From Bacteroidetes bacterium B1(2017) (GTDB taxonomy: Bacteria > Bacteroidota > Bacteroidia > UKL13-3), in assembly GCA_002256395.1 (NCBI GenBank), contig NKJG01000002.1, positions 397,098-461,097 on the forward strand: DNA of 64,000 nt, written 5' to 3'. Of the stretch, positions 666 to 29,478 are shown in pieces (position 1 is the stretch's first letter; each line of letters opens with the position of its first letter). The position numbers and the translations under genes were made by a program. The notes below the pieces were generated by a model. That model did no database searches and was not told the origin of the DNA. It was given only the letters and a program-made list of their open reading frames with translations.

Positions 666-1760
666 CTATTTACTTGGCAATTTAATTTCGAAAAGAGTAC
701 CTACATTAGGAACAGAATTTACTTTCACTTCTGCTCCTAATTTATCAAGGGCATGTTTGGCATTGTAAAGTCCAATTCCAGAACCTGTTCCAATGGATGA
801 AGCCCTAAAAAACATATCAAATATTTTTGGTATAAACTCTGGTTCAATTCCAATTCCATTATCCTCAACCAGAACAATAGCTTCGCCTTTTAGAACCTTT
901 ACCGAAATTTTTATTAGTTTATTGGTATTTAACTCCCTTTGATATTTAATAGAATTAGAAATTAGGTTTTGAAGTGCCACCATAATGACTAAAGGATCAC
1001 TCCTAAATTCTTCATGTTGATCTACCTCTATGCTAATCTTAATACCCTTGCTTTGGGCATCCGATTCATAAATTTCAACAATTTGAAGTAATAACTCATC
1101 CAGATTAATGGCCTTAATATTGAGTTCTCCTCGTTTAATTTTATAGTATTCTAATAAGTTAAATATAAACTCATCAAGGCGACTAACATTTTTAGCAATA
1201 AGGTCGGCATAATCACTTACCTCGTTCATATTGCTACTTTTAGTAAGTAAATTTGAAATAGCTAATATACCCATTAAAGGAGAGCGTAAATCATGAGAAA
1301 CACTATATACGAATCTATCTAAATCTTTATAGGCCTCTTTCAATTCTCTATTTCGTTCCTCTAATTGATTTTTAGTAAAATAGTATTCAAAGCCCTCACG
1401 AACCACGTTTCTAATTTCATCTTCAACCCATGGCTTTTTAATATACCTATAAACCTGACCTTTATTAATTGCATCTGTCAGAGATTGCACATCGCCATAA
1501 GCAGTAAGTAATACTCTTAAAGGACGAGGATATACATCTCTAATTTTTTCAAACATTTCGATTCCCGTCATAAATGGCATGCGGTAATCAGAAATAATTA
1601 CATGTGGCTCGCAGGTTTTAAGCACCTCCATAGCTTCATCTGGCGAAGAGGCTAGGTTCACTTCGAAATCCATTCGAAACGACGCCTTAAAAGCCATTAA
1701 ATTATTCTTTTCGTCGTCAACGTAAAGTACAATTGGTTTAATATTTTTATCCGTTGCCAT
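666..1760 (-). CDS. Hybrid response regulator / histidine kinase
   Basis: This cytoplasmic protein of 364 residues begins with a receiver domain (about 8-125): acidic pocket YVDDE, phospho-acceptor Asp58 in SDYRMP, conserved Lys in YIKKPW. A short helical linker leads to a HisKA helix with His156 in SVSHDLRSP and then an ATPase domain with NLISNSIKY, EDNGIGI and GSGIGLYNAK. A receiver in front of a kinase core suggests it relays phosphate from an upstream kinase, here probably the 7TM-DISM kinase whose 3' end it overlaps by 14 bp. It is the last gene of a four-gene overlapping operon. Its receiver resembles the stand-alone receiver at 6937 (both YVDDExNNLMxFKAxFR). Confidence 0.9.
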   Translation of the reverse strand: MATDKNIKPIVLYVDDEKNNLMAFKASFRMDFEVNLASSPDEAMEVLKTCEPHVIISDYRMPFMTGIEMFEKIRDVYPRPLRVLLTAYGDVQSLTDAINKGQVYRYIKKPWVEDEIRNVVREGFEYYFTKNQLEERNRELKEAYKDLDRFVYSVSHDLRSPLMGILAISNLLTKSSNMNEVSDYADLIAKNVSRLDEFIFNLLEYYKIKRGELNIKAINLDELLLQIVEIYESDAQSKGIKISIEVDQHEEFRSDPLVIMVALQNLISNSIKYQRELNTNKLIKISVKVLKGEAIVLVEDNGIGIEPEFIPKIFDMFFRASSIGTGSGIGLYNAKHALDKLGAEVKVNSVPNVGTLFEIKLPSK

Positions 1761-3897
1761 TGTTAAAAATTAAAGATCTATTCAATTGAATTTCAAAACT
1801 TGTACCCTCTCCTTCAGTAGACTTAACCGAAATTTTGCCTTTGTGAGTTTCGATGGTTTTAAATACTATAGACATACCTAATCCAGTACCTTGTCCAACC
1901 GGTTTGGTGGTAAAAAAAGGTTCAAACACTCGTTTTTGAACTGCCTCACTCATACCTATTCCATTGTCTTCAAAACTAAGGTAAATGAACTCCTTATCAA
2001 ATGTTAAATTTATGCCAATTCTTCCTCCAATATTTTCGCCAAATTTAGCATGAATAGCGAATAATGAATTACTTATTAGATTTAAGAAAACTTGATTTAA
2101 TTTCCCTGGATAACAATCAATCAATACCGGTTCGGAGTATTTTTTTTCAATTACAATTTTTCCAAATTGATTATTTAAGATGACTAATGTTGATTCAATG
2201 CCTTCTACGATGTCGGTATTTAAAATAGAATCTTCATCATTTCGGGCAAATATCCTTAAGCCTTTTACAATTTCGGCAGTTCTATGTGCGCCTTCATCAA
2301 TACCTTTTAGCAGGAAGTTTAATTCTTCTTGAAGATAATCGTAATCAATTTCATTCTTATAGCTGCTAATAATTGCCTTCTTTTCTTCTATGCTAATTTC
2401 TTGTTGAGTTAACTCTTCCAATTTACCCATTAAGTCTTGGATCATTTTAATATCTCTCTTTAATGGATTGATATTGGATGTAACAAAATTAATTGGGTTA
2501 TTAATTTCATGGGCAATACCAGCGGTTAACTGTCCCAAAGAAGCCATTTTTTCTTGATCAACCAATTGCGACTGCGTTGATTTTAAGTCGTATAGTGTGG
2601 TATTTAATTGGGTATTTGAATTTTCCAATTCAAGGGTTCTTTCTAAAACTTTCTGTTCAAGTACAACATTTTGCTCCTTAATTAGACGCTCATTTTCTAA
2701 AGCCGACATGAGGGCTTCTTTTTCCTTTTCTCGTTTTTGGGCCTGAAGGGTATTGATTTTATCGGCTAGCGCAAATGAAAGTAATGCAACTTCAAAAGAT
2801 GCACCTAAAGGAAGAGTATAGGTGGTAGCCCAAGTAAATGGTAAAACACTTAAGTTTCTAAATACAAACATAACTACACCAACTATAAATATTGACCATG
2901 CAGCAATAAAATAACTAGCAGATTTTAGTCCTTTCTTATACACCCTAAATGCCAAAACAAATACCAATGCAGCACCTGGAAGTCCAATTACATCCATCAT
3001 TCTAGCACTAATATGGGTTTGGCCAAAAATTCGAATAATGGCAGCTAAACCATAAGATACAGCTATTACAGAAAGTGCCTTATCAAGATTTGGTTCATAT
3101 TGTTTGGCCTGTAAAAATTGCTTGATAAATAGGATCGCAAAAATGCCTGAAAGAGCAGGTAATACAACAATACAGGATTTATATAATGCAGGTGAATTAC
3201 CAATTATTAAAGAAAATAAATGCCCACTTAAGGAAATTTGTCCTAATCCAATAAAGAGAATATACAGAACATAGTACAGGTAATTACGGTCTTTAGTGGA
3301 GGCAAAAACAAATAGGTTATAAAATAACATAACCAATACCACACCTATAAAAGCACCGTAAATTAAGTCTCTTAAGTTATTGTTTTGAATTGCATCCGAT
3401 TCGGTAGAAAGAGATAAAGGCAAGAGCATTTGTTCATTACCCCTCACTTTAAAGTAATAGGTAGCCTTTTCATTTTGTGCTAAATGAATATCAAATTTTT
3501 GAAAGGTTCCTCTATGCTCTCTTGCATTAAAACCATTTCCTAAATAATTGTGTACGCTTGGGTTGATGGAATCTGATTCTAAGAAATAATCTATGGAATC
3601 AATTAAAGGATTTTCAAAAATAAACATTAAGGATTTTGAAGCGCTTTTGTTTTCTACTTCTACCTTAATCCAAATTGGATATTTTACATAATCAATATCT
3701 AACTTGCCTGTAAACCCTTTGTTTGAGGCAAAATCAGCCTTTATTGTATGGAAGCTTTTCTGACAAGAGGTATCAATTAGTATTCTGGTTTGACTAATAA
3801 TCAGTTCTTTTTTTCCACCAAACTGCACGATAGACTGAGACCAAACAGGTATGTTGGTGAATATAAAAAGCCATAAAACCCAAAACCTATTTTTCAT
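1747..3897 (-). CDS. 7TM-DISM sensor histidine kinase
   Basis: A signal peptide (MKNRFWVLWLFIFTNIPVWS) is followed by an extracellular 7TMR-DISM sensor domain (about 30-175), seven membrane segments (about 180-390), a coiled coil, and a kinase core. The core has HisKA MASLGQLTAGIAHEINNP with the phosphorylated His, and ATPase boxes NLISNSLFA, EDNGIGM and GQGTGLGMS. The ATG at 3897 is preferred over the TTG at 3903 because it starts the signal peptide. It overlaps the acyltransferase gene upstream and the hybrid receiver-kinase downstream, so the three are probably co-translated. DISM domains often sense carbohydrates or other small extracellular ligands. The ligand here is unknown, and a product of the neighbouring enzymes is an inference only. 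Confidence 0.9.
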   Translation of the reverse strand: MKNRFWVLWLFIFTNIPVWSQSIVQFGGKKELIISQTRILIDTSCQKSFHTIKADFASNKGFTGKLDIDYVKYPIWIKVEVENKSASKSLMFIFENPLIDSIDYFLESDSINPSVHNYLGNGFNAREHRGTFQKFDIHLAQNEKATYYFKVRGNEQMLLPLSLSTESDAIQNNNLRDLIYGAFIGVVLVMLFYNLFVFASTKDRNYLYYVLYILFIGLGQISLSGHLFSLIIGNSPALYKSCIVVLPALSGIFAILFIKQFLQAKQYEPNLDKALSVIAVSYGLAAIIRIFGQTHISARMMDVIGLPGAALVFVLAFRVYKKGLKSASYFIAAWSIFIVGVVMFVFRNLSVLPFTWATTYTLPLGASFEVALLSFALADKINTLQAQKREKEKEALMSALENERLIKEQNVVLEQKVLERTLELENSNTQLNTTLYDLKSTQSQLVDQEKMASLGQLTAGIAHEINNPINFVTSNINPLKRDIKMIQDLMGKLEELTQQEISIEEKKAIISSYKNEIDYDYLQEELNFLLKGIDEGAHRTAEIVKGLRIFARNDEDSILNTDIVEGIESTLVILNNQFGKIVIEKKYSEPVLIDCYPGKLNQVFLNLISNSLFAIHAKFGENIGGRIGINLTFDKEFIYLSFEDNGIGMSEAVQKRVFEPFFTTKPVGQGTGLGMSIVFKTIETHKGKISVKSTEGEGTSFEIQLNRSLIFNNGNG

Positions 3898-4582
3898 TCG
3901 CAATATTTAATTCGTAAATAAATTCCATTTCGCCCTTAGGGCCTTTTTCAATTGAAACCCCATTTAGGTTTTCCCTTATTTTATATATTGCATCACGTTC
4001 AATTGGGTCTGCAGCGGGTAAATTAGTAAGGTCGTTTATGAGCAAGGCAGTTGCCGTTAAATCTTCTTTAGGATAATAGAAAGTACCATTATTTCCTAAT
4101 TCTCTAATAACCTTAAATCCCACCTTTAAACAGTTTCTAAGGGTTCCTGGAGAACACAAGGCTGTTAGATGTTGAAAGTTCAATTGGTTTGAAATAGCCA
4201 CACCTACCCTTCCCATATAAATAGATCCAATACCATATCCAGCAGCCTCTTTAGAGTTCCATAAGCCACAGAATTCTGCCACATTATAGACACCTAAATT
4301 ATTGGCATATTCATAAATACGGTCGTCCAAAATAGCAATTGCATCTTCCATTGGCATTCTTAATTGCTGGCTTTTTATTTGGATCCTACCTCCTCCATAA
4401 ACCTTTTTGCCATCCTCAGATTCAACAATAATTGCGTATGTATATGGATCGTCAATCCAATCGGCATTTAGGGAAGTTACTTTTGTAACTCCATATGATT
4501 CCAAAACTAAATGGTGCCCTTTGATATACCTTAAGCAGGCGGAATGATCTTCGGTTACCTTAAATGCCCTAATTTTTATCAT
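3887..4582 (-). CDS. GNAT-superfamily acyltransferase, FeeM/autoinducer-synthase-like
   Basis: This 231-residue protein has a GNAT-like layout. An N-terminal part contains W-DDPYTYAIIVES and GGGRIQI. A central motif EFCGLWNSKEAAGYGIGS resembles the glutamate strand and acyl-donor loop, and the strand-helix LTALCSPGTLRNCLKVGFK follows. The arrangement recalls N-acyl amino acid synthases (FeeM) and LuxI-type synthases, which use acyl-ACP rather than acetyl-CoA, but similarity is judged by eye and the substrate is unknown. Its start overlaps the stop of the E1/nitroreductase gene in a TAATG, and its end overlaps the sensor kinase, which argues for translational coupling. An ordinary GNAT acetyltransferase is the main alternative. 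Confidence 0.6.
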   Translation of the reverse strand: MIKIRAFKVTEDHSACLRYIKGHHLVLESYGVTKVTSLNADWIDDPYTYAIIVESEDGKKVYGGGRIQIKSQQLRMPMEDAIAILDDRIYEYANNLGVYNVAEFCGLWNSKEAAGYGIGSIYMGRVGVAISNQLNFQHLTALCSPGTLRNCLKVGFKVIRELGNNGTFYYPKEDLTATALLINDLTNLPAADPIERDAIYKIRENLNGVSIEKGPKGEMEFIYELNIANEK

Positions 4583-6843
4583 TAATTTATATTGAAAAGT
4601 AATTTGTCTATTGGGCGACGTAAAGACCTCACCTCCGCATCCTTTTCTTTGGCCAATCTAAAAATAAAATTAATCTCTCTTGTAGCAAGTTCGGGTAAAA
4701 TTAATTTAAACCTATTATTCAGGTCATTAAATTTACGAATATAGTTTTCAGTAAACCCTTCTCCATTTCCATGGATTAACCGTGCAATTAAAAAACTATA
4801 CTGAGTAATTGGTTGAAAAGAAAATCCAGCACGGGTAGATTCGAGCCAAATTTTTTGCACAAATTCTCCCGCATGTAAATACGATTCATTGGAATAAAAT
4901 GGCATAGAAACAATACCCATAGCCGAGGCATTTGCTATTCCTTTCTTAGTATTCTTTTTAAACGCTTCTCCACCACCAATACGTTCAACCCATTCAATGG
5001 CCTTTCTGCTGCTGGCAATTCTTAATGCTAATATCTCTGCTTTACTAAAATTTAAAGTTGCCACGTCTAGGCCATCTCTCGTATCTAATGCTTCCTTAGT
5101 TGTCATACGAAGTTCTTTTGTGAACATATCGTGATGACCTTGAGGATGTAATAATAATAGCATTTCTGCTGATGAAACCAACTCCCCAAGTTCATTCATT
5201 TTATCCATATCTTCAATGATGGTTAAATGTGCATTAGGTTCTTCTGACCTAATAATTGAGAATCGCTCTTTAAGTTCGTTTGATAATTCCTGCCTTGAAC
5301 CAATTTTTCGATTGGTATGCCTGTCAAATATAGCTTTTGAGAGGCTTACCTCCGCTTTTTCATCGCTAGGTTCAAAACTACAAATTGCCACCAACCTGCT
5401 GTCATTTGTATTCGGAAAATACTGATGCTTTATGCGGTAACCTAGCACAGCTGCTTGAACACGTATATTTTCTATAGCTGCTCCAAATCCAATATACGAA
5501 CCGAGATTGGCAAAATCCAAAAAAGATTGTGAATGAAAAATATCGTGGATAAAAAAGAGGTTACCTTCATAAAACCCAAAACGCCAAGGTTGGGTATTAC
5601 CACCTGAAGGAGCCATAGATGCGGCCTCAATAAGATATTTTTTATCCATCTCATTTAGGTAATCCTTCCTAGCAATTACACCCGATTCTTTAACAATCTT
5701 TTGAATGTCTTCAATGGTTAAAGGAGACTTTATTTCTTCTATGAAAACAGTTTTTTCTATCGATTTTGGCTCCGGTACTAGTTCATCCAAATCAATATAA
5801 AAACGACCAGATACGCTTGAATTATTTAACAAAATTTTTCTACTCATTTCGGCGGCAACTCCTCCTCCCATGGTAACGGCTGAAGCTAATTGAGGCCAGC
5901 TAACAATTGAACTTTGAACCTCAATCATACTAGCCTTCATACGTTCTGATAAGGAGTTTAATCCTACCATGGGCAATAGGTACTCAATTTTATCTTCTTG
6001 ACTTAAACCCTTTAATTTAGCCGGATCCAAATCTCCAACCAGTCCATGCAAAATTTGCCTTTTAGGTTCTAAATCGAAACGCTCAATATCTAATAAGCCC
6101 CTATCACTTGTTTCCATTAAAACTGGAACACCATATTCTCTGGCCTTATACCGCGAAAGTATTTTTATATCCAATCCATCACATTCTTCAATAAGTAAAT
6201 CAAGCTTACCATCCTTTGTAAAAAACTCATCGATGTTTCCTTCATGAATACCTTCATTGAAAACTTTTACCTTTAAAAATGGGTCTAATTCAAGTATTTC
6301 TCTAGCACAAATAAGCGTTTTTGCCAATCCAATTTGAGAAACTTTCCCCCTTAATCTATTTAAATTACTAAGATCTAAGGTATCAAAATCAGCCAATCTA
6401 ATTTCTCCAAAACTTCTTTCCATTGCCATGGTTAGCGCAACAGATTGCCCAACGCTTAATCCAATTACTCCAACAATCTTTTTAGATAGATGGTTCTGCT
6501 CATTTGGACTAATTTTATATTGATTTCTATTTGTCCGTAACTCAATAAATTCCTTTTCTGGCAATAGATGTATAAGTGTTCTGTTCCATGGGTAAAACAC
6601 CCATACACCATAGGATACAGGATTAGTTCCTTCCAAAAAAGTCGACACTTTTTGTGAAAGTGTTTCTTTATCAAACCTTTTTTCTGGAAATCTACATTTT
6701 ATTAATTCAGAAAGTTGTTCTATAATCGTATCATAAATTACTATTTCATGATGATGAGAATGAGTAGAAATAAAATCTTCCACTTCATCCATTGTTTGAA
6801 AGGAAAATATTTTAGGAGTAATAGTTATTATATTTTCGACCAT
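4582..6843 (-). CDS. Rv1355c-family protein: ThiF/E1-like domain fused to nitroreductase
   Basis: This is a 753-residue fusion. Residues about 120-330 form a ThiF/E1-like Rossmann domain: GVIGLSVGQS as the nucleotide loop, then LADFDTLDLSNLNR, the usual E1 Asp and Asn-Arg signature. Residues about 385-740 form an FMN nitroreductase domain with SGGNTQPWRF. This pairing matches the uncharacterised mycobacterial Rv1355c family. E1-like enzymes adenylate a carboxylate and nitroreductase-fold enzymes oxidise or reduce with FMN. In azole-modified peptide pathways the two functions are separate partner proteins. No YcaO or peptide precursor is seen here, so the substrate is unknown. It is the first gene of the operon, with the divergent receiver gene 93 bp away. 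Confidence 0.8.
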   Translation of the reverse strand: MVENIITITPKIFSFQTMDEVEDFISTHSHHHEIVIYDTIIEQLSELIKCRFPEKRFDKETLSQKVSTFLEGTNPVSYGVWVFYPWNRTLIHLLPEKEFIELRTNRNQYKISPNEQNHLSKKIVGVIGLSVGQSVALTMAMERSFGEIRLADFDTLDLSNLNRLRGKVSQIGLAKTLICAREILELDPFLKVKVFNEGIHEGNIDEFFTKDGKLDLLIEECDGLDIKILSRYKAREYGVPVLMETSDRGLLDIERFDLEPKRQILHGLVGDLDPAKLKGLSQEDKIEYLLPMVGLNSLSERMKASMIEVQSSIVSWPQLASAVTMGGGVAAEMSRKILLNNSSVSGRFYIDLDELVPEPKSIEKTVFIEEIKSPLTIEDIQKIVKESGVIARKDYLNEMDKKYLIEAASMAPSGGNTQPWRFGFYEGNLFFIHDIFHSQSFLDFANLGSYIGFGAAIENIRVQAAVLGYRIKHQYFPNTNDSRLVAICSFEPSDEKAEVSLSKAIFDRHTNRKIGSRQELSNELKERFSIIRSEEPNAHLTIIEDMDKMNELGELVSSAEMLLLLHPQGHHDMFTKELRMTTKEALDTRDGLDVATLNFSKAEILALRIASSRKAIEWVERIGGGEAFKKNTKKGIANASAMGIVSMPFYSNESYLHAGEFVQKIWLESTRAGFSFQPITQYSFLIARLIHGNGEGFTENYIRKFNDLNNRFKLILPELATREINFIFRLAKEKDAEVRSLRRPIDKLLFNIN

Positions 6844-6936
6844 TTAAGTTAAAAAAGAGCAAGTTAAATTATTTTTAGCGCAATATAGATAGAATTTTAT
6901 TAATATTGTCTGTAGATAATTTAATCCACCCAACCT

Positions 6937-7410
6937 ATGGATTCAAAAATTAAAGTTCTGTATGTAGATGATGAAGAAAACAATTTAATGTCTTTTAAGG
7001 CCTGTTTTCGAATAAAATATGATGTTTTTATAGCCATTAGCGCGAAGGTGGCTTTAGAAATATTGGAGAAAAACGAAGATATTCAAGTAGTTATTACCGA
7101 CCAACGTATGCCAGAAATTACTGGAGTTGAATTTTTAAAAATGATGTTGGATCAACACCCAAAACCTATGCGGATTATGCTTACTGGTTTTGCCAATTTT
7201 GCAGATACCGTTGACGCCGTAAATTTAGGAAAGATATTTAGCTACCTCAATAAACCTTGGGAAGAAAAAATATTAGACGAAACTATTCAAAAGGCAATCA
7301 GTAAGTACGCAGAAGAGGAGTTTATTAGACAAAGAGCTCAACAAACAGAAAGGGCTGAACGAAGCGCTGAGCAAATGGAATTTATTTTACGCCAAGAACT
7401 TCTATCCTAG
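6937..7410 (+). CDS. Single-domain response regulator with helical tail
   Basis: The protein has a receiver domain (about 5-125) with YVDDE, phospho-acceptor Asp55 in TDQRMP and Lys in YLNKPW, then a charged helix rich in Gln/Arg/Glu and no output domain. It probably acts by protein contact or as a phosphate shuttle. Its receiver belongs to the same subtype as that of the hybrid kinase at 666 (shared YVDDE-NNLM-FKA-FR). It lies divergent from the operon that ends with that kinase, so the two are likely one signalling system. The 93-bp gap (6844-6936) must hold both promoters. Confidence 0.85.
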   Translation: MDSKIKVLYVDDEENNLMSFKACFRIKYDVFIAISAKVALEILEKNEDIQVVITDQRMPEITGVEFLKMMLDQHPKPMRIMLTGFANFADTVDAVNLGKIFSYLNKPWEEKILDETIQKAISKYAEEEFIRQRAQQTERAERSAEQMEFILRQELLS

Positions 7411-25858: not shown

Positions 25859-26490
25859 TGAAGAGCACTTTAGTAAATATTATTCTATTTTGTGCTGTAA
25901 TTTTTGGAGCCATTGGATGCCATTCCGACCATAAATCAAAGCCGCAAATAAGCTGGGTATTATTTGAGCCGGTGCAAAAATTTGAGTTCGATTCTGTTAG
26001 TCATTATTTTGCCAATGGAATGCTGCTTTATTCACCAGAAGCCGACTCTGGATTTATGATGCACCTAATAAATCCAAAAACGGGTGAACCAATACCAGAA
26101 GAGGGTTTTAAATTTTATAATTCAACAAAAGAAAAAGAGCTCTTCAAACATTTAAACGAGTTTGCAGAAACGCATCCCTCCTATGTTATTTCGGCCTTTA
26201 AGAAAGATGAACCCGCAAGAATTTATGATGGAAGTGACTTTCTTTTATTGAGAATTGAAGATGGAAAATTAAGCAAATGGTATCGTTTTTTAGATCATGA
26301 AAAGCCCGCCTATATCGATACTTTAACCCAATTATTCAGAGAATATAAGTATACACTTAACACCAATACTTGCACCTATAAATTAGAATTTATAGATAGT
26401 ATTGTTGAGAGATGGATAAAGGAACCAGAGTTAAAAGATTACTTTTTTAGGCCAAAGCCAAAGTCTAATTTTACTATTAAAAGCGAATAA
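25858..26490 (+). CDS. Uncharacterised lipoprotein inside the suf operon
   Basis: A lipoprotein signal peptide with lipobox AIGC precedes about 190 residues without a recognised domain. The mature part is rich in charged and aromatic residues. It contains two cysteines: the lipidated one and one near residue 172. Its ATG overlaps the sufS stop (TAATG) and it lies 5 bp before sufE, so it is co-transcribed and probably translationally coupled with cytosolic cluster-assembly genes. That is an unexpected place for an envelope protein. Function is unknown. Confidence 0.8.
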   Translation: MKSTLVNIILFCAVIFGAIGCHSDHKSKPQISWVLFEPVQKFEFDSVSHYFANGMLLYSPEADSGFMMHLINPKTGEPIPEEGFKFYNSTKEKELFKHLNEFAETHPSYVISAFKKDEPARIYDGSDFLLLRIEDGKLSKWYRFLDHEKPAYIDTLTQLFREYKYTLNTNTCTYKLEFIDSIVERWIKEPELKDYFFRPKPKSNFTIKSE

Positions 26491-27271: not shown

Positions 27272-27353
27272 GGACAGGTCGCGACCTGTCCATGCACCAA
27301 AAGTACAAGTCACAACCTGTCCATGCACCAAAAGTACAAGTCACAACCTGTCC
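27272..27353. repeat. Palindrome plus 31-bp tandem repeat after the suf operon
   Basis: GGACAGGTCGCGACCTGTCC (27272-27291) is a perfect 20-bp palindrome starting right after the sufT stop. Its right arm begins two 31-bp tandem copies (27284-27314 and 27315-27345, each starting ACCTGTCCATGCACC), and a third ACCTGTCC closes the array at 27346-27353. It may fold into a hairpin that ends the operon, but there is no T run. It looks like a dispersed intergenic repeat of REP or MITE type. Confidence 0.85.
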
Positions 27354-27399: not shown

Positions 27400-29478
27400 A
27401 TGAATTCTGTGGAAGCTAAAACACGTATTGAAGAGCTGAGCCAAACCCTTTGGCAGCATAATTATAATTATTATATCTTATCGCAACCAAGCATCAGCGA
27501 TTTTGAGTTCGACCATCTCTTAAAAGAATTAGAGAAACTAGAAGCTCAATTTCCTGAATTTGCTTTACCCAACTCTCCTACCCAGCAAGTTGGTGGAGAT
27601 ATTACCAAAAACTTTAGCCAGGTTAAACATAAATACCCCATGCTTAGCTTGGGAAACACATACTCGCAAGAAGAAATTCAGGAGGTTGACGATAGAATTA
27701 GAAAATCTATTGGCGATGAGTTTGAGTATGTATGTGAACTTAAATTTGATGGATTAGCCATTAGCATTACTTATGAAAATGGCAAATTATTAAGAGCCGT
27801 AACTCGCGGAGATGGCGTACAAGGCGACGATGTAACTGCCAATGTTAAAACCATTAGAAGCATTCCTCAACAACTTATTGGCAATTTCCCTCCCCTATTT
27901 GATATTAGAGGAGAGATTTTTATGCATAGAAAAACTTTTGAGCGCCTGAATAACGAACTCAAAAAAGAGCTGCTTGAACAAGGTGTTGATGAGGATAAAA
28001 TTCCTGAACGTTTATATAAAAACCCAAGAAACTTTGCATCAGGTAGTCTTAAAATGCAAGACTCTAAAGAGGTAGCAAAACGATCCTTAGATGCCTTTTT
28101 GTACTTTGTTTACACCGACGAAAACTTGTGTAATACCCATGCCGAATCCTTGAAACTAGCCGAATCGTGGGGCTTTAAAGTGAGCGATCATTTTAGAATT
28201 TGCAAAAACATTACAGAGGTAATGGTATTTATAAAACAATACGATATCGAAAGAAGTAAACTTAGTTATGAGATTGATGGCGTAGTAATAAAGGTAAATG
28301 AATATCGTCACCAGAAAGAATTAGGCTTTACGGCAAAGGTGCCTCGCTGGGCTATTTCGTATAAATATAAAGCCGAAACAGCTATTAGTAAACTCCTAAA
28401 AGTTAGCTACCAAGTTGGAAGAACTGGAGCCATCACACCTGTGGCAAATCTTGTACCGGTGCAATTGGCGGGTACAACTGTTAAGCGAGCAAGTTTATAC
28501 AATGCCGATGAAATTGAACGCTTAGATTTATATGAACACGACACCGTTTTTGTTGAAAAAGGTGGAGAAATTATTCCTAAAATTACGGGTGTAGATAGCA
28601 GTAAGCGTGACCTATTTGCGCAAAAAATAGCCTATATTACCCATTGCCCTGAGTGCAAAACAGAGCTCATACGAAAAGAAGGTGAGGCCATTCATTATTG
28701 CCCAAATGATAGTCATTGTCCACCCCAACTTATTGGAAGAATGGAACATTTTATTTCTCGCAGAGCCATGAATATAGAAGGTTTAGGTTCAGAAACAGTG
28801 GCAGGATTATTTCATAAAGGCTTGATAAAATCCTATGCCGATTTATTTGAACTAAGCTACGAACAATTAAATGGAGTAGAGTTTGAGTTAGAAGAAGATG
28901 CCGAAGGCAAAAAGAAAAAACGTTCGATAAAAGAAAAAGGTGCTGAGAATATTATCAAAGGAATTGAAGCCTCAAAAGCTATACCTTTTGAAAGAGTTTT
29001 ATTTGCTTTAGGCATTCGAATGATTGGCGAAACGGTTGCCAAAAAATTGGCTCAGCACTTTGGAACCATTGAAAAGATTATAGCTGCCACAGCCCAAGAA
29101 ATTGCTGAAGTACATGAAATAGGTGAGAAAATTGCCGAAAACCTTACTCGCTTTTTTGCCGATGAAGAAAATGTAAACCTAGTTATGCGACTCAAAGAAT
29201 ATGGTTTATGTATGGAGGTTGTGTATGACCCAAATGAAACAAGAAGCTCGGTTTTAGAAGGCCAAACATTTTTAGTATCAGGCACATTTTCGATGAGTAG
29301 AGATGAGTTAAAAAAACTCATTGAACGCAATGGTGGTAAGAATGTAGGTAGTATTTCTAAAAGTCTAAACTACCTAATTGCAGGCGATAAAATGGGTCCA
29401 GAAAAATTGAAAAAGGCCAGCGATTTAAATATCAAAATGATTAGTGAAGAAGATTTCATGAATATGATATCGGCGTAA
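27400..29478 (+). CDS. ligA: NAD-dependent DNA ligase LigA
   Basis: LigA seals nicks in replication and repair. The adenylation motif ELKFDGLA near residue 113 holds the AMP-accepting Lys. An OB fold (YQVGRTGAITPVANL) follows, then a four-Cys zinc finger (CPECK...HYCPNDSHC, about 414-440), helix-hairpin-helix repeats and a C-terminal BRCT domain (about 615-690). The 692-residue length is normal for Bacteroidota. Confidence 0.97.
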   Translation: MNSVEAKTRIEELSQTLWQHNYNYYILSQPSISDFEFDHLLKELEKLEAQFPEFALPNSPTQQVGGDITKNFSQVKHKYPMLSLGNTYSQEEIQEVDDRIRKSIGDEFEYVCELKFDGLAISITYENGKLLRAVTRGDGVQGDDVTANVKTIRSIPQQLIGNFPPLFDIRGEIFMHRKTFERLNNELKKELLEQGVDEDKIPERLYKNPRNFASGSLKMQDSKEVAKRSLDAFLYFVYTDENLCNTHAESLKLAESWGFKVSDHFRICKNITEVMVFIKQYDIERSKLSYEIDGVVIKVNEYRHQKELGFTAKVPRWAISYKYKAETAISKLLKVSYQVGRTGAITPVANLVPVQLAGTTVKRASLYNADEIERLDLYEHDTVFVEKGGEIIPKITGVDSSKRDLFAQKIAYITHCPECKTELIRKEGEAIHYCPNDSHCPPQLIGRMEHFISRRAMNIEGLGSETVAGLFHKGLIKSYADLFELSYEQLNGVEFELEEDAEGKKKKRSIKEKGAENIIKGIEASKAIPFERVLFALGIRMIGETVAKKLAQHFGTIEKIIAATAQEIAEVHEIGEKIAENLTRFFADEENVNLVMRLKEYGLCMEVVYDPNETRSSVLEGQTFLVSGTFSMSRDELKKLIERNGGKNVGSISKSLNYLIAGDKMGPEKLKKASDLNIKMISEEDFMNMISA

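Follow-up and report, generated by a model that had tools for sequence, protein, structure and literature searches.

What is a membrane sensor kinase doing in one operon with two enzymes of small-molecule synthesis? The question is raised by positions 666 to 7,410 of a 64,000-nucleotide stretch from Bacteroidetes bacterium B1(2017) (contig NKJG01000002.1, positions 397,098 to 461,097), which as a whole is called the window below. Four overlapping minus-strand genes lie there, with a divergent fifth. From high to low coordinates, the four encode a TrzS-like fusion of a ThiF/E1-like cyclase and an Acg-like flavin-dependent oxidase, a TrzA-like putative N-acyl amino acid synthase (called the acyltransferase here), a 7TM-DISM sensor histidine kinase, and a receiver-histidine kinase. 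The fifth encodes a stand-alone receiver.

This gene arrangement is far beyond chance, as it recurs in 53 of the 55 genomes of the window's class that bear the acyltransferase. Across Bacteroidota, the enzyme is paired near-exclusively with one clade of 7TM-DISM kinases. The coupling appears to be new; the enzyme chemistry is already known. We lean towards a self-contained operon that would make a capped N-acyl amino acid and sense it by its own kinase, either in quorum-type signalling or to monitor itself.

The acyltransferase is paired with one kinase clade

Among 60 relatives of the window's genome, 25 carry the acyltransferase, and the kinase is found at E <1e-120 in exactly those 25. The remaining 35 give two weaker kinase matches, one to the kinase domain (genome G037) and one at 3.9e-46 (G053); the other 33 have none at 1e-40.

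The wider sample consists of 295 genomes of the class. Some DISM sensor is present at 1e-15 in 123 of these, the acyltransferase in 55, and a kinase sensor of at least 270 bits in 52. All 52 also have the acyltransferase. The 270-bit threshold was set after the list was seen, using a model derived from kinases of the operon. One kinase that does lie in an operon (243 bits, in G290, where the acyltransferase is present) falls below it. A test by position is independent of this threshold. In 53 of the 55 acyltransferase genomes, the sensor lies no more than 4 kilobases (kb) downstream, on the same contig and strand; the two exceptions are G237 and G266 (see below). The 53 genomes span 20 families and 34 genera, which rules out a co-occurrence confined to close relatives. 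The initial annotation had named such a restriction as a finding that would speak against its proposal.

For contrast, eight loci were taken from genomes that lack the acyltransferase; their sensors score 238-257 bits. None has an acyltransferase beside the sensor, within a stretch that for one of them (L206) is 3.5 kb. DISM genes are few: 27 chosen operon genomes hold 56 matches, and 9 of these genomes have no DISM match besides the operon copy.

The fusion protein alone was the query for a second set, the best 80 of 585 confirmed loci. Three of these repeat loci already in the collection and are left out; at 97 % identity there are no further duplicates. Among the 77 that remain, the acyltransferase is found in 75, the DISM kinase in 72, the receiver-kinase in 63 and a lone receiver in 71. 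Two of the five without a kinase (L124, L159) end about 2 kb past the cyclase domain, and the genome of a third (L194) has an acyltransferase-kinase pair on a separate contig. The last two, L152 and L183, are taken up below. Named loci include Pedobacter, Mucilaginibacter, Daejeonella, Parapedobacter and Algoriphagus, along with many metagenome-assembled genomes (MAGs). Pedobacter glucosidilyticus DSM 23534 (L167) and Pedobacter puniceum (L149) are cultured carriers. The combined set numbers 145 loci, with three duplicates removed and three genomes represented by two contigs or loci. The DISM kinase is present in 133 of these, the receiver-kinase in 118 and the lone receiver in 133.

One record, L182, is titled Azovibrio restrictus and carries a Bacteroidota-type copy. 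The title is probably wrong, because the set given as 'its class' consists of contigs identical to those of the window's class.

In a phylum sample of 247 genomes, the acyltransferase occurs in 11, ten of them in the window's class and one outside (G405). The 4.7-kb contig of the latter holds ThiF, acyltransferase, DISM kinase and receiver-kinase.

In the open-access literature, by titles and abstract openings, no oxazolone or FeeM-like operon with a DISM kinase was found; most subscription journals fall outside this scope. To that extent, the earlier remark that no such system was known to be described holds.

The enzymes and their exchange

The fusion (753 residues, 4582-6843, minus strand) scores 749 bits against the NCBIfam model NF005901, 'Rv1355c family', for which the cut-off is 476. 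The cyclase part, a ThiF domain in Pfam, covers residues of about 100-360, and the oxidase part, a Nitroreductase domain, about 400-750. The second half matches the Acg flavoprotein 2YMV (E 4e-12, over 405-684), and the fusion also matches UBA5 and TcdA (E 0.001-0.004). Residues of ATP-site type are invariant in 16 aligned sequences, the window's included: GLSVG at 128-132, D152, N160, R163, K175 and D222. The same residues are kept in three actinobacterial homologues. The invariant D222 is assumed to be the counterpart of the ATP-site aspartate D217 of M. smegmatis TrzS.

Rv1356c and Rv1355c are TrzA and TrzS, according to the text used from PMC12856293. As described there, TrzA N-acylates tryptophan, and TrzS closes the ring to an oxazolone at the expense of ATP, followed by an O2-dependent desaturation. 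This chemistry has been demonstrated in mycobacteria and rhodococci, and oxazolones are destroyed by acid and methanol (same source). In their Discussion, the tryptazolone authors count what oxazolones do physiologically among the major questions still unresolved. TyzACB is a related pathway, going by the portion used of PMC10404671.

The window has a ThiF-like cyclase fused to a flavin-dependent oxidase and, overlapping it by 1 base pair (bp), a gene for a synthase of the FeeM/TyzA kind, FeeM being its best fold match. Judged by sequence and predicted fold, the window's enzymes are a probable new member of the known N-acyl oxazolone pathway. The initial annotation had said in general terms that E1-like and nitroreductase partners tailor natural products, and this pathway now makes that statement specific (PMC12856293 and PMC10404671, in the parts cited above).

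For the acyltransferase (231 residues, 3887-4582, minus strand), Pfam gives no match up to E 0.1, its profile finds nothing better than E 0.11 among PDB sequences, and a search of plasmids with the protein gave no match. An AlphaFold model was built from 49 sequences, being the window's and those of named loci, and it has a predicted local distance difference test score (pLDDT) of 89.2 and a predicted template modelling score (pTM) of 0.88.

The best fold match in the PDB is FeeM, at E 3.5e-7 and a template modelling (TM) score of 0.60 by query and 0.72 by target. Among the best 50 of 829 matches, FeeM takes ranks 1-3 and the acyl-homoserine lactone (AHL) synthases MesI and BjaI ranks 4-6, with RpaI, LasI and EsaI lower. 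Members of the plain GNAT family (NAT9, SpeG, AAC(6')) are interspersed from rank 12. Query TM-scores are 0.56-0.60 for FeeM, 0.54-0.56 for BjaI and mostly 0.39-0.50 for the GNATs; MesI, at 0.42, is not above them. The root-mean-square deviation of these matches is 3.9-7.5. A viral fold library gave mainly acetyltransferase-like matches, the best at E 1.7e-5.

A plain acetyl-CoA GNAT, which by the initial annotation would have refuted its own proposal if clearly modelled, is the less likely reading because FeeM and the AHL synthases outrank the GNATs, by a modest margin. For LuxI-type homoserine lactone synthesis, the fold is the one line of evidence. FeeM and not LuxI is the nearest fold, and no LuxR-type gene was found among the five window genes.

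There is a faint link to the actinobacterial enzymes. On two Rhodococcus plasmids, the protein divergent from the Rv1355c-family gene gives weak collinear matches to the acyltransferase family profile, at 20 and 17 bits. A profile comparison with this neighbour protein aligns 172 columns, at an HH probability of 40 %.

Fusion homologues are also found further away. In a MAG titled Blastocatellia (G531), an Rv1355c-family fusion of 847 bits is overlapped by a GNAT gene (L183:1720-5153). In 199 genomes of its phylum there are five fusion-family matches at 1e-25, of which this one exceeds the cut-off. A plasmid search with the fusion matched 13 records, all Actinobacteria by name. A GGDEF gene lies close by in two Rhodococcus plasmid regions. 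In a Streptomyces region, a sensor protein and a regulator are encoded about 5 kb away from the ThiF-GNAT pair. The Streptomyces sp. NBC_01471 plasmid (L232:6923-8721) carries a homologue that consists of ThiF only, with 44 % identity in that part, and overlaps a GNAT gene; this GNAT has no match to the TrzA profile.

Within Bacteroidota, the gene order of the operon is not fixed and its tailoring enzymes are exchangeable. Where both genes are present (135 loci), ThiF comes after the acyltransferase in 27 and before it in 108. The place of the lone receiver varies as well: it can be upstream and divergent, or downstream with either orientation. A quick tree built on acyltransferase and sensor covers 68 loci, namely 39 with oxidase, 23 with ThiF alone, 5 with a methyltransferase and 1 with neither. 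Four of its labels are hand corrections, made in three cases because a contig ended or a frame was broken and in one because ThiF lies on another contig. Gain or loss of the oxidase requires at least 9 changes on this tree. The 23 ThiF-only genomes have no oxidase match, in a search that had no internal positive; the fusion-family profile does detect lone oxidase domains in three genomes (G107, G140, G161).

In five genomes of three families, the cyclase is replaced by a methyltransferase. Four of these (G046 and G217 of family f11, G136 and G168 of f23) have a class I methyltransferase of 254-255 residues between acyltransferase and kinase; identities to the first of these enzymes are 40-53 %. 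Genome-wide, their fusion-family matches are weak and at superfamily level (E 1e-4 to 1e-10). The fifth (G305, f35) has a 213-residue protein resembling isoprenylcysteine carboxyl methyltransferase (ICMT) in the cyclase slot, with the genes overlapping. A single clade of all five loci is not rejected (approximately unbiased test, p 0.27), so independence of the swaps is argued from class I and ICMT being unrelated families. In a sixth genome (G123, f6), the gene that separates acyltransferase and kinase is O-methyltransferase-like, and ThiF is on another contig. Loci L199 and L200 are examples of the methyltransferase type of operon.

We infer that these enzymes share one effect, the capping of the carboxyl group as a ring or as a methyl ester, and the case for an ester is strongest with the ICMT-like enzyme. 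For the class I methyltransferases, ring methylation would be an alternative. Stieleria N-acyl-tyrosine clusters contain candidate ring C- or O-methyltransferases, one of which clusters with UbiE (PMC12479983, in the part used).

Genome G021 has an Rv1355c-family fusion (L063:8289-10526) near an SprA gene. Its acyltransferase-kinase operon (L062) is elsewhere and is not accompanied by a cyclase. In 13 of the 21 loci of the window's own family, a protein of 880-914 residues follows the operon, and in the window none does. Two such proteins were scanned (L057:13508-16252 and L061:4720-7386), giving one AsmA match over its cut-off and one DUF748 match under it.

The sensor, the relay and competing explanations

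The sensor kinase (716 residues, 1747-3897, minus strand) consists of a DISMED2 ectodomain, a 7TM bundle, HisKA and HATPase. Its gene overlaps that of the acyltransferase by 11 bp (3887-3897), counted from the ATG at 3897 and not the TTG at 3903; the overlap between fusion and acyltransferase is at 4582. Pfam scores are 165.9 bits for 7TMR-DISM_7TM (PF07695) and 56.2 for DISMED2 (PF07696), both over cut-off, 75 for HATPase_c, and 23.5 for HisKA, under its cut-off of 26.9. The H-box reads AHEINNPI in the translation.

In 126 non-redundant operon sequences, the mean frequency of the top residue is 0.52 in the 7TM part and 0.36 in the ectodomain. Residues N194, Y206 and Q220 of the 7TM part are kept in 99-100 % of these. 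A 7TM part that is conserved more than the ectodomain is what a membrane-bound ligand would lead one to expect.

The receiver-kinase (364 residues, 666-1760, minus strand) overlaps the sensor gene by 14 bp (1747-1760). It has the layout REC-HisKA-HATPase, with Response_reg at 66.9 bits, HisKA at 41.1 and HATPase_c at 74.9. The lone receiver (157 residues, 6937-7410, plus strand) has Response_reg at 62.4 and no output domain; a PDE8A_N match below cut-off overlaps. The 93-bp region between the divergent genes (6844-6936) is presumed to be a shared promoter region. All five genes are thus where the initial annotation had placed them. Its description of the two receivers as one subtype is also fair, because NF053512 is the best NCBIfam model of both, at a score far under its cut-off. 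H-boxes in both window kinases and aspartate motifs in the receivers can be read from the translations; such motifs are general knowledge.

Pfam finds no DNA-binding domain in either window receiver. Of the 232 lone-receiver frames that lie up to 8 kb from the anchors, 212 are shorter than 210 residues, which leaves little room for such a domain. Ten nearby receivers were scanned, several of them chosen for their length. Four have a LuxR-type DNA-binding domain, one has PAS, and five, including the window's, have nothing else. By domain content, local transcriptional output appears to exist in some lineages, and none is evident in the window.

On the favoured reading, the FeeM-like enzyme would N-acylate an amino acid. 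The ThiF domain would activate the carboxylate with ATP and close it to an oxazolone, which the flavin domain would desaturate. This neutral product would reach the 7TM domain of the cognate DISM kinase. Phosphate would then pass to the receiver of the receiver-kinase, to the lone receiver, or to both, and genes elsewhere would be controlled. The parts that we infer are the product as the ligand, its action from cell to cell, the route of the phosphate, and which amino acid and chain length are used. The initial annotation spoke of a self-contained signalling system. The gene coupling in that claim is now strongly supported, and the sensing of the product by the kinase would be a further step.

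Several observations weigh against this reading. The G531 genome, the sole one of five tested, has no match to the profiles of the DISM sensor or the operon acyltransferase. In four actinobacterial regions (of 13 records, with incomplete gene tables), no kinase is annotated as a direct neighbour. The usefulness of oxazolones would therefore not depend on a DISM kinase.

Also within Bacteroidota, some genomes with parts of the operon lack the kinase clade: G237 has acyltransferase and ThiF, G222 the fusion alone, and Pedobacter sp. Leaf216 (L152) has a 189-bit DISM relative elsewhere in its genome. G313 carries a decayed copy (L116:8171-9866), in which a partial ThiF runs into a kinase domain beside a lone receiver; its genome has no acyltransferase or sensor match. 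The G266 operon runs off its contig, and this assembly has no such sensor elsewhere and is not among the 123. Nine background DISM sensors show a like bias (0.36 for 7TM versus 0.30 for the ectodomain), so the contrast in the operon sensors is special in part only. Four receivers with a LuxR-type helix-turn-helix domain lie near the operon (L077:15402-16109 and L203:5699-6607, from one genus, L188:7798-8460 and L075:12153-12809) and may be a transcriptional output of the circuit. Finally, a ligand role, export and density dependence would all have to be added to what the genes give, and tight coupling fits a kinase that controls synthesis as well.

That last possibility is the strongest competitor, though we consider it rather unlikely. 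The DISM kinase would read an outside cue, be it a carbohydrate via DISMED2 or some stress, and switch on the oxazolone genes. The product would then be a tool, such as an antibiotic, surfactant or protectant, and not a signal. The pairing of enzymes and kinase fits this equally well. According to the Discussion of PMC12856293, sub-inhibitory antibiotics induce oxazolone production in several proteobacteria, and Stieleria N-acyl tyrosine derivatives are antimicrobial. The four LuxR-type receivers just mentioned could act on local promoters, but the window's own two have no DNA-binding domain and most lone-receiver frames are short. An outside cue also sits poorly with an ectodomain that is the less conserved part of the sensor. 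In addition, the same kinase clade is kept across cyclase with oxidase, cyclase alone, and methyltransferase. A kinase that stays constant while the tailoring changes is easier to see if it reads the product or its core.

It is considerably less probable that the product is a membrane lipid which the 7TM kinase monitors in the same cell, with no communication between cells. Oxazolones are more abundant inside cells, as stated in the text used from PMC12856293. Conservation of the sensor is concentrated in its 7TM domain, and the 880-914-residue neighbour of AsmA/DUF748 type follows 13 of the 21 family loci, but that neighbour is limited to some relatives and absent in the window. Moreover, the acyltransferase is FeeM/LuxI-like, and this enzyme class is known for small diffusible molecules.

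Inheritance of an ancient synteny block, the parts of which need not cooperate, is very improbable and not favoured: ten of the 11 acyltransferase genomes in the phylum sample do belong to the window's class, but presence is patchy (25 of the 60 relatives and 55 of the 295 class genomes), both genes are absent together, and gene order is reshuffled while the partners stay the same.

The reading in which the operon senses its own product can be taken further, to a widespread quorum-sensing family of Bacteroidota's own. We hold this version tentatively, at a little under an even chance. A FeeM-like N-acyl amino acid, with its carboxylate neutralised by interchangeable enzymes, would be read by a 7TM-DISM kinase and passed on through a relay like that of the Phc system. 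ThiF with oxidase would give an oxazolone, ThiF alone a saturated azlactone, and a methyltransferase a methyl ester. The exchange of head groups would set each lineage's dialect.

With this operon, the oxazolone pathway arrives with a dedicated receptor candidate and a relay in cultured soil bacteria such as Pedobacter, so that its role is directly testable. If the product is the ligand, Bacteroidota would gain a signal-receptor pair of their own and the 7TM-DISM family a lipid-like ligand. It would also be a quorum circuit that exchanges its tailoring enzyme and yet keeps the receptor clade.

Elsewhere in the window, positions 27284-27353 hold a perfect 31-bp tandem repeat of 2.3 copies, between open reading frames that end at 26490 and start at 27400. 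Rfam and tRNA scans of the window gave no matches.

Comparison with known systems

The enzymes are closest to TrzAS (Rv1356c-Rv1355c), and also to OxzAB and TyzACB. They share a ThiF-flavin oxidase fusion of the same NCBIfam family, an adjoining N-acyltransferase, and the same residues of ATP-site type. The acyltransferases themselves are only remotely alike, as the 20 bits above indicate. The neighbours differ: c-di-GMP genes flank TrzAS, rv1354c and rv1357c in M. tuberculosis (PMC12856293, in the text used), and no DISM kinase, receiver-kinase or lone receiver is annotated beside the actinobacterial genes of the four regions.

The sensor belongs with the 7TMR-DISM kinases, of which LadS is an example, since DISMED2 and DISM_7TM precede the kinase. 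The operon sensors differ in being a distinct clade with an acyltransferase as neighbour. Among the papers listed that join 7TMR-DISM with quorum sensing, titles and abstract openings show no such ligand.

Compared with LuxI/LuxR, the synthase fold is alike, and the expected product would likewise be a ring-closed N-acylated amino acid derivative. However, FeeM is the closer fold, and ring closure is expected via ATP and ThiF, not via S-adenosylmethionine. The receptor candidate here is a membrane kinase and not LuxR.

By gene layout, the nearest parallel is the Phc system of Ralstonia (PhcB-PhcS-PhcR-PhcQ). According to the part used of PMC8578825, phcS-phcR-phcQ is a demonstrated quorum-sensing relay; phcR encodes a receiver with a kinase and phcQ a receiver, neither with a DNA-binding domain, in the same operon as the methyl-ester synthase gene phcB (see also PMC11960443). 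The signal made by PhcB is a hydroxy fatty acid methyl ester, and the Phc description, in that part, includes no FeeM-like enzyme or ThiF-oxidase. The words '7TM' and 'transmembrane' are absent from the main text of PMC11960443, a paper on PhcS. The window has no PhcB methyltransferase as its synthase, but an acyltransferase and a ThiF-oxidase. What it shares with Phc is an operon with a signal enzyme (here a putative one), a sensor kinase, and a receiver-kinase and lone receiver that both lack DNA-binding domains. In the five genomes described above, from three families, the operon includes a methyltransferase as well.

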